Below, piece by piece: positions 1-3,890 of a stretch of 64,000 bases of DNA. The stretch is from Phytohabitans houttuyneae (GTDB taxonomy: Bacteria > Actinomycetota > Actinomycetes > Mycobacteriales > Micromonosporaceae), in NCBI RefSeq assembly GCF_011764425.1, contig NZ_BLPF01000001.1, forward strand, positions 3,463,001-3,527,000, in the 5' to 3' direction. A model generated the notes under the pieces. That model ran no database searches. It had not been told where the DNA came from and saw nothing but the letters and a program-made list of their open reading frames with translations. The position numbers and the translations under genes were made by a program. Within the stretch, counting starts at the first letter, position 1; every line of letters begins with the position of its first letter.

Positions 1-2020
1 GCGTGCGCGGGGAAAGGTTGACCGCGACGGCGAGCGGCCGGTCGGCGTCGGCCCACTCTCGGCAGCGGCGCAGGCCCTCCTTGAGCACCGCCTCGGTGAG
101 GCGGCTCAGCTGGCCGGTGTGCTCGGCGACCGCCACGAAGTCTTCGGGCGAGACCGCGCCGTGCGCCGGGTGCTCCCAGCGAGCCAGGCACTCCACCCCG
201 ACGAGCCGGCGGTCGGTCAGCGTCACCTTGGGCTGGAAGTAGACCTCCAGCTCGTCATTGTCGAGGGCGCGGCGCAGGTCGCCGGCGAGCTCCAGGCGGC
301 GCACCGACCGCGACTCAAGGCCCACGCTGAAGAGCTGGACGCCGCCGGGCACCGACTTTGCGGCGGTGGCGGCCACGTCGGCCCGCTGCAGCAGCGTCGC
401 GGGATCCGTCCCGTGATCCGGGTGTACGACAACGCCGACGGCCGTGTCGACGTCGAGCGTGAGGGTGCCGAACATGATCGGGTCGCGCACCTGCTCACGA
501 AGCTCGGTGGCCAGCTGGGCGGCCGCCTCGATGCTCTCCGAGCGGAGGGTCACCACGAACTCGTCGCCGCCGACCCGGCCCACCAGCGCCGCGGGCGGTG
601 CGAACGCTCGCAGCCGCCGCGCCACCTCGGCGAGCAGCTTGTCGCCGGCCGCGTGGCCGAGCGACTCGTTGACGTCGCGCAGCCGGTCGACGTCGAACAG
701 GAGCACAGCGACCACCTCGCCGGGCGCCCGGACGACGACCGACTCCTCAAGGGCCTCGGTGATCCGCCGCCGGTTGGCGAGGGCGGTCAGACCGTCGTGG
801 TACGCGTCGTAGCGGAGCCGGTCGACCAGCCGCGAGTTTTCCATCGCCACGCCGGCGTGCGCCGCGATCGTCTCCAGCACCTGCACGTCGCCGGCGGTGA
901 AATGGACGGTGTCGCCGAGCCGGTTGACCACCTCGAGCGTGCCGATGACCGCCTGGCCGGAGCGCAGCGGCGTGACGATCACGTCCTTGACCCCGCTCGC
1001 GCGCAGTGCCGTGCGCAGCTCGCCGCTGGTCTCCAACCGCGAACCGGCGGTCACCGTGCGCCCGTTGCCCTCCTGGGCGAGCGCGCGGGCCAGCGGCGGC
1101 GTCGGTGTGATGTCGAGCAGGCCGGAGTCGTCGACCCGGGCCGAGAGCAGGACCTCCGGGTAGCGGCCCTGGGCGGGCAGCCACAGCGTCGCGTACTCCG
1201 CCTGCATCAGCGCCCGCACCCGGAAGAGCAAGTCGTCGGCGAGGCCGCCCTCCTGGTCGCCGCGGCCGATCGCGCGGCTCAGGTCGTAGAGCTGGGAGAG
1301 CATGCGGTGCTGGCTGAGGAACACCGCGTACGACCGGTAGAAGATCGCCAGCACGATGGCCAGACCCAGCACGAGCAGGGCGGACCAGGGGGTCACCTGC
1401 AGCACGATCAGGATGATCAGGCCGACCGCGACGTTGACGCCGACGGTGATGACGAGCGTGCGGATGCCGGTGCGCAGCACCTCACGCGCGGCCGCAACGC
1501 CCTGCACGAGCAGGAACACACCGATCACGGCGAAGAACGTGACCAGCGTGTACGTCGCGACGGCCAGGAAGAGGATGCCCCACGTGCCCGGCCCGACGCC
1601 GCGCATCGGCGGAAGGGCGAGCATGACCGCGCAGGCGATCGCGGCGGCCACGGCGGCTCTTGCGACGTTGAACCAGAGCTTGACCGGCGGGAGGCGCCGG
1701 CGCATCTGAGTGATCAGGTTGCCGAGTGCGAAGGTCAGCACCACGATCGGCGGCGGTAGGAAGAAAAGCGCCAGGACAAGCGGGATCTCGTAGATCGCGA
1801 CGATCATGTTGTGCCGGCGGACAATGAACGGCAGGATCGCGACCTCGGCGCCAACGAGGATCGCCAGCAGCGCCGCAGCGATAGCAAGATCGCTTGGCGT
1901 GACCGTGTCGTCGACCAGCGCAAGGCTCGTGGTGATGACCACCGCCAAGATCCCCAGGGGACCGGTGATCAGCCAGGCGTTTTCAGCCTTGCGACGTCGC
2001 GCTGCCTGCCGGGAGGACAT
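1..2020 (-). CDS. GAF-GGDEF-EAL cyclic-di-GMP signalling protein, 3' part cut by window edge
   Basis: Membrane-linked enzyme predicted to make and/or break down cyclic di-GMP. Translation from the ATG at 2020 gives several N-terminal membrane segments (about residues 15-200), then a GAF-type sensor region, then a GGDEF domain with an intact motif (RVGGDEFVV), then an EAL domain that opens with FQPKV and carries the signature as ECLARW instead of the usual EALLRW. The sequence leaves the window just after VNLSP, so the rest of the EAL domain, with most metal ligands, is not visible. An intact GGDEF motif suggests cyclase activity, or a GTP-sensing regulatory domain for the phosphodiesterase; the sequence cannot separate these. 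The start overlaps the end of a small upstream ORF, so the two are probably co-translated. The opposite strand also has a long open frame here, but it has no recognisable domain. Confidence 0.93.
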   Translation of the reverse strand, partial: MSSRQAARRRKAENAWLITGPLGILAVVITTSLALVDDTVTPSDLAIAAALLAILVGAEVAILPFIVRRHNMIVAIYEIPLVLALFFLPPPIVVLTFALGNLITQMRRRLPPVKLWFNVARAAVAAAIACAVMLALPPMRGVGPGTWGILFLAVATYTLVTFFAVIGVFLLVQGVAAAREVLRTGIRTLVITVGVNVAVGLIILIVLQVTPWSALLVLGLAIVLAIFYRSYAVFLSQHRMLSQLYDLSRAIGRGDQEGGLADDLLFRVRALMQAEYATLWLPAQGRYPEVLLSARVDDSGLLDITPTPPLARALAQEGNGRTVTAGSRLETSGELRTALRASGVKDVIVTPLRSGQAVIGTLEVVNRLGDTVHFTAGDVQVLETIAAHAGVAMENSRLVDRLRYDAYHDGLTALANRRRITEALEESVVVRAPGEVVAVLLFDVDRLRDVNESLGHAAGDKLLAEVARRLRAFAPPAALVGRVGGDEFVVTLRSESIEAAAQLATELREQVRDPIMFGTLTLDVDTAVGVVVHPDHGTDPATLLQRADVAATAAKSVPGGVQLFSVGLESRSVRRLELAGDLRRALDNDELEVYFQPKVTLTDRRLVGVECLARWEHPAHGAVSPEDFVAVAEHTGQLSRLTEAVLKEGLRRCREWADADRPLAVAVNLSPRT

Positions 2021-2189
2021 GCCTGTCAGGGGATGAGGGGAAGGTGCCCCACTCGTAATCAAGCACCGCGCCGCCCCACTCGTAATCCATGGCTGAGAAG
2101 CCGCCGCCTGACCATCCGGCAACCACGCCGAGGGTCACGGCCAGCGCCAGCACCAAGCCTGCGAGGCGGCTCAGTCTGCGTGCACGCAT
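1983..2189 (-). CDS. Small secreted-type peptide with a duplicated DYEWG motif
   Basis: Unrecognised 68-residue product starting MRARRLSRLAG, with a basic N-terminus followed by a hydrophobic stretch (residues about 9-25), like a signal peptide or single membrane anchor. After it the motif DYEWG occurs twice, nine residues apart, encoded by a 15-bp direct repeat at 2046-2060 and 2073-2087. A GGGAGCG ribosome-binding-like sequence lies about 6 nt before the ATG. The ORF overlaps the start of the GGDEF-EAL gene by 38 nt, which suggests translational coupling. A longer in-frame start upstream is possible, but the Shine-Dalgarno spacing favours this one. Function unknown; a signal for, or partner of, the downstream sensor is only a guess. 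Confidence 0.5.
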   Translation of the reverse strand: MRARRLSRLAGLVLALAVTLGVVAGWSGGGFSAMDYEWGGAVLDYEWGTFPSSPDRHVLPAGSATSQG

Positions 2190-3128
2190 CGAACGCTCCC
2201 GTCGGGGTAACCGCATGTAACTCGCGAACTTTTGGGGTGACCTGATCGTGCCACACCACAGCCCTCGGAGACATCCTGATCGGCGGCTTAGAACCACACT
2301 GCGCGAAAAACATGGCTGAACGGCTGACCGGAAACTTAGCTGGACTTTAGGAACCCATCCCCATGCAAGATTTCACGGCCATGCCGAACCCCCTGACGGC
2401 ACCCTCATCAAGTTGGGAAAGGACCGATTTTCCCGGCTTGCTGTTTAGAGGGCCGCTCACTTTGTGCAGGATTTGTGGGCTATGACGCTCCGTCACGTTT
2501 GTCCAAACTTGCCAGACCTTCCCCGTTCGCGCCACCTCGTCCTACCTTGCGCTGGCCTCCCCGCACGTCGCGCGCCTTCGGATAGTGGATCTTGACGCTC
2601 ACCGGGACGCCCACCCCTGGAACTTCCCGATCCGACGGTTGCATTTGCGTATTCGCTCGCGTTTATCAAACCTTATTTGGTGACTCGCGAGTAAGCAACG
2701 ACAAACTTCGACCTATTGCGTAGTGGCGCAGTTCTGACACGACGAGTTACACCCGTGGAACGCGAAACCACTTCCTGATCCAGCGGTCAGGAGGTCAGCA
2801 CACGACGCAATCCAAACCCATGACACGCACTTATTCCACGGGCCTTTGTCCCAATCGAACCAAATGGTCGATGACCTAATCAACCTAACGCACGATCCCG
2901 GGCCACCGAAGTACCGACACCCGATCGGTGCAGGTCCCAGCCCTACCGGCCCACGGGCGAGGAAGCGCTGCCGCCACAGCGGCAAGCGATCGAGGACGCG
3001 AGCGCTACCGATCTCCGCTAATCCGGATCGCTTCCAGATTTCGGCGAGATGACGGGCACCGAGATAGCGATGATCGGGCGACTCGAGGGGCACAGCGGTG
3101 ACCGCCGAAGGATCGGCCGCACCAACAA
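2190..3128. other. Gene-free, lower-GC stretch
   Basis: About 940 bp with visibly lower G+C than the coding regions around it. Short open frames exist on both strands but lack high-GC codon bias (no strong third-position G/C), ribosome binding sites or recognisable motifs. The left part must hold the promoter of the small peptide and GGDEF-EAL pair. The right part lies just beyond the 3' end of tRNA-Tyr, where integrative elements often insert. I see no integrase and no second copy of the tRNA 3' end. Confidence 0.55.
2483..2495. promoter_or_regulatory. BldD-like palindrome
   Basis: TGACGCTCCGTCA is a perfect 5-3-5 inverted repeat about 290 bp upstream of the small peptide/GGDEF-EAL pair. 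It differs by one base from the BldD consensus known from Streptomyces (TNACNCWGNGTNA). BldD is the cyclic-di-GMP-responsive regulator that controls many GGDEF genes, so the position is suggestive. One-mismatch hits are expected several times in 64 kb by chance. Confidence 0.25.
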
Positions 3129-3168
3129 GATCGGCCCCGGCCAGCGGCATGGCTGGTCGGGGCCGATT
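3129..3168 (-). terminator. Hairpin terminator after tRNA-Tyr
   Basis: Arms 3130-3145 and 3152-3167 form a 16-bp stem (one G-U pair) around a short loop, immediately 3' of the tRNA-Tyr gene on its strand. The bases after it on that strand (CTTGTTGG) are moderately T-rich, fitting an intrinsic terminator. Confidence 0.8.
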
Positions 3169-3178
3169 TCCCTAGGTG

Positions 3179-3259
3179 TGGCGGGTAGAGGATTCGAACC
3201 TCTGTAGCTTTCGCGACGGATTTACAGTCCGCTCCCATTGGCCGCTCGGGCAACCCGCC
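3179..3259 (-). tRNA. tRNA-Tyr (anticodon GTA)
   Basis: The 7-bp acceptor stem GGCGGGT/ACCCGCC closes at 3259 and 3180, with discriminator A at 3179. The T arm reads GAGGTTCGAATCCTC and the anticodon loop ACTGTAAATC, giving anticodon GTA at 3223-3225. A long variable arm makes it class II, which in bacteria fits Tyr, Leu or Ser, and GTA decides for Tyr. The CCA end is not encoded. Confidence 0.97.
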
Positions 3260-3395
3260 TAGGGCGTGCCGCCACGGTGACCGCGGCAGCGGAAGCAAGG
3301 ATAGCGGTTGCGGTGGCGGGTCACGCAACCGGGTACGGTCGGGGGTCACTGGCCCCGGAACATCTTCATATCGCCACAAAGCAGGAGCATGACCT

Positions 3396-3890
3396 ATGGC
3401 AGCCAACCCGTCGTTCGACATCGTCAGCAAGGTCGACCGGCAGGAGGTCGACAACGCCCTCCGGCAGGCGGAGAAGGAGCTCACCACGCGCTTCGACTTC
3501 CGCGGCACGGGCGCGCAGATCTCCTGGTCTGGCGAGGAGGCGGTGAGCCTCCAGGCGGAGACCGAGGATCGGGTCCGCGCCGCGCTCGAGGTGTTCAAGG
3601 ACAAGCTGGTCAAGCGCAACATCTCGCTGAAGGCGCTGGACGCGGGCGAGCCGCGTACGTCGGGTAAGACGTCGAGGATCGACTGCAAGATCATCCAGGG
3701 CATCGACCAGGAGAAGGCCAAGGCGATCAGCAAGGCGATCCGCGACGAGGGTCCCAAGGGCGTCCAGGCCCAGATCCAGGGCGACCAGCTCCGCGTCACC
3801 GGCAAGAAGAAGGACGACCTTCAGGCAGTGATCACCCTGCTCAAGGCCGGCGACTTCGGCGTCGCCCTCCAGTTCACGAACTACCGGTAG
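3396..3890 (+). CDS. yajQ: YajQ-family cyclic-di-GMP/nucleotide-binding protein
   Basis: Small cytoplasmic protein of 164 residues, the normal length for the YajQ/UPF0234 family. It starts [14 protein letters not shown], has the conserved [16 protein letters not shown] stretch near residues 20-40, and ends with the typical LQFTNYR. Members in Xanthomonas and Pseudomonas bind cyclic di-GMP and act as transcriptional co-regulators; the role in actinobacteria is not settled. An AGGAG ribosome binding site lies about 8 nt before the ATG. It stands alone, convergent with the MFS gene, whose last codons overlap its 3' end by 17 bp. A cyclic-di-GMP enzyme 1.4 kb away makes the pairing worth noting, though conserved co-regulation is not shown. 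Confidence 0.95.

Follow-up and report, generated by a model that had tools for sequence, protein, structure and literature searches.

A small W-core peptide gene 5' of a c-di-GMP enzyme with a predicted S-component-fold membrane domain: a proposed signal-receptor pair of Micromonosporaceae

Agr, Phr/Rap and ComCD are peptide pheromone systems that are species-typed or rely on multi-copy peptides. Actinobacteria include major antibiotic producers and, to our knowledge, the signals that set c-di-GMP in these bacteria are mostly unknown. S-components of ECF transporters bind small molecules. Receptors with the S-component fold ('transceptors') that are fused to GGDEF and EAL domains have already been reported (Partipilo and Slotboom 2024, PMC11109136). 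The available part of that paper places the S-fold kinases of Gram-positive bacteria almost only in Bacillota and names no gene-encoded peptide partner of the S-fold receptors (PMC11109136). In Actinoplanes sp. SE50/110 the GGDEF-EAL gene ACSP50_2473 is located downstream of a maltase gene, and the available text on it makes no reference to a small peptide encoded 5' of it (PMC6828939).

Here we analysed a stretch of 64,000 nucleotides from Phytohabitans houttuyneae (the window; contig NZ_BLPF01000001.1, positions 3,463,001 to 3,527,000), in which a short ORF preceded a gene of the GGDEF-EAL type. We found no prior description of this peptide-enzyme pair in the open-access literature. The features of the locus were as follows.

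1..2020, minus strand: membrane-GAF-GGDEF-EAL enzyme of 845 aa; it leaves the window at base 1, and its full length was obtained from the own genome beyond that point
1316..1987, minus strand: membrane domain of the enzyme (residues 12-235), with a predicted ECF S-component fold and flanking helices
1983..2189, minus strand: peptide (precursor) gene of 68 codons with ATG at 2189, putatively exported; homologues lie 5' of the same enzyme
2118..2180, minus strand: signal-like segment RRLSRLAGLVLALAVTLGVVA (residues 4-24), a positive start and a hydrophobic run
2073..2087, minus strand: core copy 1, DYEWG (residues 35-39), read from the sequence
2046..2060, minus strand: core copy 2, DYEWG (residues 44-48), read from the sequence
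2196..2200, minus strand: likely ribosome-binding site GGGAG of the peptide gene, read from the sequence, which fits the GAC(A/G)GGAG block of relatives
2244..2255, minus strand: conserved cis-element TGTGGCACGATC, a candidate promoter or operator, about 50-69 nt 5' of the peptide start in relatives

The small ORF was translated as MRARRLSRLAGLVLALAVTLGVVAGWSGGGFSAMDYEWGGAVLDYEWGTFPSSPDRHVLPAGSATSQG. A sequence-only reading had described it as a 68-residue ORF with a signal-like start, carrying DYEWG twice at nine-residue spacing and overlapping the enzyme gene by 38 nt. The coordinates, the frame, the positive and hydrophobic start and the places of both pentapeptides were all confirmed, and so was the overlap (the peptide gene ends at 1983 and the enzyme begins with ATG at 2020, the same place at which its orthologues begin). 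Moreover, the 15-nt DNA of the two copies, which start nine residues apart, was identical. As a general feature the overlap did not hold, since it was specific to this lineage: the peptide stopped about 3-8 nt 5' of the enzyme in the other five genomes of the genus and mostly 30-140 nt away elsewhere. The two genes share a strand, and their spacing is operon-like. The final 20 or so residues of the window peptide were not shared. In Pfam the peptide gave only LapA_dom at E 0.15, which did not reach the cut-off, and NCBIfam gave no match.

A direct sequence search with the 68-residue peptide gave hits in 9 of 101 genomes, a part of which were due to chance, and it reached little beyond the genus; therefore, more distant relatives were located through the enzyme. 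Within the genus the peptide search recovered homologues in all six genomes. The duplicated core was kept in four of them (the window, MEFDWAGPLLEFDWA, MEYDWSGPLLEYDWS and MGFEWSAPLAGFEWS) and the remaining two had a single core, LDYDWG or MDWDWS. The signal-like segment was the best-conserved stretch of these peptides, and a comparison of four same-genus copies gave dN of 0.18-0.36 vs dS of 0.39-1.05. Searching with the membrane part of the enzyme, we identified an orthologue in 139 of the 150 Micromonosporaceae genomes, and inspection of the upstream DNA revealed a small ORF 5' of the enzyme in every one of the 139. By inspection, 128 of these ORFs combined a signal-like start with a W core, seven (genus g12) had words without W, and four had W words without a signal sequence. 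The ORF was also present at 80 of 80 named loci, namely the best 80 of 113 relatives, among which Phytohabitans flavus and P. suffuscus were nearest to the window.

The ORF picker used for the named and family loci favours W motifs, and the figures of a strict test are less biased since control anchors were judged by identical criteria. This test detected the ORF at 77 of the 80 named loci (the best 80 of 113), against 1 hit at 800 control anchors on the same strand and 0 at 800 on the opposite strand; at the family loci it succeeded in 111 of 139 cases. The own genome contained 26 GGDEF genes, and among the 21 that could be examined only the window enzyme was preceded by such an ORF. Thus, the check for conservation in relatives that the sequence-only reading had suggested came out in its favour, since the frame, the position and the motif type were kept well past close relatives. 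DYEWG itself and the presence of both copies were not conserved, and single-copy forms were the commonest. The features that were conserved were the signal-like start and a core of the type [D/E/G]-[aromatic/aliphatic]-x-W, often closing as W-x-stop, whereas the linker varied. The core profile was D, G or E at -3, F, V, Y or I at -2, E, D, I or V at -1, the W, and G, T, N, S or Q at +1. The four family precursors that lacked a signal sequence were found in G019 (L142), G128 (L130), G113 (L133) and G054 (L134). One of them packed three ADWQ copies into 40 aa, and the three others were only about 20 aa long. For G054, G113 and G128 the ORF picker chose incorrect or questionable ORFs, and their short ORFs (with ends such as DLTWTVIGR or DYGWNIIGR) were identified by visual reading.

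As a rule a species kept to one core word and other species had other words, and the core occurred in one to eight copies per precursor. Among the 52 precursors with at least two family-type W cores, 26 were identical at positions -3 to -1 in all copies and 26 were not identical at all three positions. Random dealing of the cores, which ignores the shared descent of tandem copies, produced a mean of 0.49 identical precursors and a maximum of 4 in 2000 shuffles, vs the 26 observed. Between copies the codons differed synonymously in 55 and nonsynonymously in 8 of 288 codon pairs, including Ser AGT/TCC swaps; the nonsynonymous count is lowered because copies were grouped only if three of their four core residues agreed. 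The synonymous changes point to copies that have been kept identical, as opposed to copies that are simply young. Both analyses covered 194 precursors, with G054, G113, G128 and four second-copy loci left out. Examples of multi-copy precursors were six DYSWG (L208, Micromonospora sp. 15K316), three DHEWH (G125), three SVDWT (G168), three EFQWS (G164), three DFTWG (G175), four NSGDVA (G112) and eight SGEIA (G140). The genus g12 (L141, L144-L149), whose enzymes were among the most diverged of the family, used the W-less words NSGDVA, GSGEIA, SSGEVG and NSSDIG, with as many as eight copies.

Upstream of the peptide gene, a block TGTGGCAC[C/G]ATC stood at a near-fixed place in 203 of 219 loci (loose pattern). 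It was this constancy of place that supported the cis-element; rarity in the genome was not significant because a reversed control was equally rare. Namely, the exact 12-mer TGTGGCACSATC was found once in the own genome, and so was its reversed control. We rejected TGTGGCACSATC as a regulon marker: matches with one mismatch were not above chance in the window, a second match, in G052, lay over an apparently unrelated gene, and the version with an upstream CTTT was absent from the own genome. Further upstream of the peptide operon there was a tRNA gene (3179-3259, minus strand) and an ORF (3396-3890) that we take to be YajQ-like. Between 1900 and 3400 Rfam matched the tRNA only and no leader. 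At the stand-alone peptide loci no dedicated processing protease was seen.

The part of the enzyme inside the window matched PF00990 (1.6e-32) and PF00563 (1.2e-23), with an intact GGDEF motif and ECLAR as the EAL motif, so that by sequence both domains and their catalytic motifs place it in the GGDEF-EAL class. The RxxD inhibitory site before GGDEF was missing from the window enzyme. Among 168 aligned enzymes the GGDEF motif was exact in 124 and not exact in 44, whereas the EAL glutamate was present in all 168 (as ECLxR, for EALxR, in 166 and as EALVR in 2). Since the glutamate was universal while GGDEF was exact in only 124 of 168, control of phosphodiesterase activity appears to be the likelier output.

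An AF2 model of the membrane domain (pLDDT 89.5) resembled 4huq_S with Z 13.4 and 3.7 Å over 162 residues. The first 22 ranks were all S-components or NikM/CbiM (Z 13.4 to 10.2) and the next row fell to 6.9, which supports the predicted ECF S-component fold; Foldseek alone gave E 0.026. With the Pfam models of ECF S-components and 5TMR-LYT there was no match, either for the window protein (E cut-off of 1) or among 71 relatives (cut-off of 0.01). We rejected Pfam MASE9 as the family, since a match in 1 of 71 rows (E 0.0021) was insufficient. From the charge distribution, residues 37-41 and 136-143 would lie outside, whereas the N-terminus and residues 61-77 and 99-115 would lie inside. Compared with classical S-components the S-fold core is thus apparently inverted, so the classical pocket would face the cytoplasm.

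The membrane domain diverged twice as fast as the catalytic part (0.59 vs 0.30). A partial Mantel test, performed on 140 of 166 enzymes after removal of near-identical ones (L198 was dropped as short), related the motif to the membrane domain given the catalytic part (r=0.134, p=0.0005), and the reverse gave r=-0.012, p=0.70. At a catalytic divergence of 0.05-0.15, pairs with near-identical cores differed by 0.207 in the membrane domain and pairs with different cores by 0.404. The correlation with the motif was 0.134 for the membrane domain, 0.086 for GAF, -0.013 for GGDEF and -0.033 for EAL. Because it fades along the gene, as it would with block exchange of adjacent DNA, linkage without contact is possible, and such an exchange is a fair alternative to contact. 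Specificity cassettes of the pheromone type would give the same fading pattern. Several of the best co-varying columns lay on one face of helices 144-173 (150, 154, 157 and 161) and 175-209 (181, 188, 195 and 202). Membrane columns made up 27 of the top 60 vs about 22 expected, and the outer and inner halves of the domain correlated similarly with the core; therefore, we claim no binding site.

Outside the family, a class-wide search for the membrane domain returned 37 of 345 genomes, 34 of them from other families. A motif-tailed or repeat protein was encoded directly 5' at 14 of the 27 class loci read, with (SLSGS)n, (GASLT)n, GTRWG twice, TPGTGWH four times, (GLRWN)11 and a single C-terminal GLRWY as examples; the 13 loci without a repeat tail include L159 and L177, which were read out of frame and scored as misses. 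Phylum-wide, the domain was found in 67 of 396 genomes, and 18 of the 28 loci read had tails, among them (GASWT)n, (SSSWS)n, (GKSWT)n and (WDGQR)7, and ten had no repeat tail (G218 is counted in both the class and the phylum figures). All ten tail carriers tested were subtilases. At the 30 GGDEF loci read from three such genomes, with 14 more matches outside this set, a period-five W tail was found at two only, both of them S-fold genes; five of the 30 loci extend past the stretch examined, and another S-fold gene, L387, had no visible tail. The stand-alone peptide seems to be a reduced version of the subtilase-tail arrangement, and the two coexisted in G048 and G146. Across several lineages within the Actinomycetota, subtilases with long period-five Trp tails stood directly before S-fold GGDEF-EAL genes (L357, L363, L367, L374, L379, L382, L383 and others). 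A small repeat ORF in G237 had no signal sequence.

The best reading of this locus, to which we assign a probability of about 0.6, is that it encodes an exported peptide ligand and an S-fold c-di-GMP receptor enzyme. In its sequence the gene pair follows the pheromone pattern, with a small precursor that has a signal-like start, a core that varies between species and an adjacent gene for a predicted membrane receptor. The precursor would be exported by means of its signal-like start, and proteases would release a short peptide, often ending in W-x. The released peptide could act on the fast-evolving membrane domain of the next protein, whose state would be passed through GAF to the GGDEF-EAL output and change c-di-GMP. 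Such a signal may pass between cells, as in quorum-type systems, or return to the producer. For this pair we infer binding, export, processing and the direction of effect, and our confidence is no higher because some precursors have no signal sequence, the core is apparently inverted and linkage could explain the correlation. The earlier suggestion that the enzyme has the peptide as its ligand, its inhibitor or its processing target was the right kind of explanation; it was incomplete in that the variation of the core by species with matching copies inside a precursor, the repeat-tailed subtilases before the same domain in other orders and classes, and the S-component fold were missing from it.

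A different possibility, which we regard as unlikely, is that the signal segment remains as an uncleaved anchor and that the peptide is a membrane-tethered small subunit, which holds or inhibits the neighbouring enzyme in the same cell and is never released. The strong conservation of the hydrophobic start in Micromonospora (MSGRRLGRLLGSLLVLAA type) is in line with this, as is the correlation of the core with both halves of the membrane domain and not just the outer one. However, no tether is needed by multiple identical words with variable spacers, by the signal-less precursors or by words on subtilase tails, and an [AV]xA-like site (loose pattern) was present in the right stretch of 184 of 197 distinct peptides.

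It is rather improbable that the exported repeats function as surface or wall-binding elements, with the neighbouring enzyme sensing another ligand, for instance a vitamin-like one, as other S-fold proteins do. The S-component fold match agrees with such small-molecule sensing, and one tail barely passed the Pfam pentapeptide-repeat model (20.5 vs a cut-off of 20.2 bits). Many precursors, however, had a single W-x-stop core (in 108 of 197 distinct peptides W took the final or penultimate position), which is too little for a repeat fold, and both the species-specific words and their apparent co-diversification with the membrane domain argue against this role.

We consider it very improbable that the ORF is a regulatory leader whose translation sets the expression of the enzyme through Trp attenuation, stalling or coupling and whose product is idle afterwards. 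Its position just 5' of the enzyme, the overlap in the window and the W near the end of many of the ORFs would fit a leader. However, there was usually one W codon per core, and the precursors of g12 were W-less and carried other words in one to eight copies. Moreover, the amino acid identity of the copies was kept despite synonymous change, and the words were also found on full subtilases. A Trp leader or attenuator was rejected as a candidate on the basis of the lack of tandem Trp, the W-less relatives and the Rfam result for 1900-3400. Finally, despite the many overlapping long ORFs on both strands of this high-GC region, the probability of a chance ORF is negligible, as this explanation is refuted by the conservation, namely the strict test with its controls, the conserved motif type and dN below dS.

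If the ligand-receptor reading is true, it would represent a new class of peptide signalling that uses a nucleotide-messenger enzyme as the receptor, and it would hint at what one group of S-component-fold receptors senses. Since the predicted ligand and the predicted receptor are found in one two-gene unit, species by species, their specificity can be tested with short synthetic peptides. On a larger scale, and with somewhat less than even odds, the system may be a phylum-wide form of actinobacterial communication. Self-matching and fast-diversifying words from tiny precursors or subtilase tails would act through an inverted S-fold receptor on c-di-GMP, coupling cell-to-cell signalling to the development messenger, and the word and the receptor would be swapped as specificity cassettes.

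Among the known systems, ACSP50_2473 shares the organism family and the enzyme class with the window enzyme (PMC6828939). ECF S-components and 5TMR-LYT resemble it in the predicted fold of the membrane domain; in contrast to them, the window protein matches neither the S-component nor the 5TMR models of Pfam, and it has an apparently inverted core and an extra last helix. Subtilases (PF00082) with repeat tails present period-five W words directly 5' of the same receptor domain, whereas the carrier of the words in Micromonosporaceae is a stand-alone peptide without a protease domain. The likeness to Agr, Phr/Rap and ComCD is in the small, putatively exported precursor beside a presumed receptor, the species-variable core and the polytopic fast-evolving domain of the presumed receptor. 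Unlike in those systems, no maturation enzyme was seen at the locus, the W-core words are linear, and the presumed receptor is a GGDEF-EAL enzyme rather than a histidine kinase or a cytoplasmic regulator.
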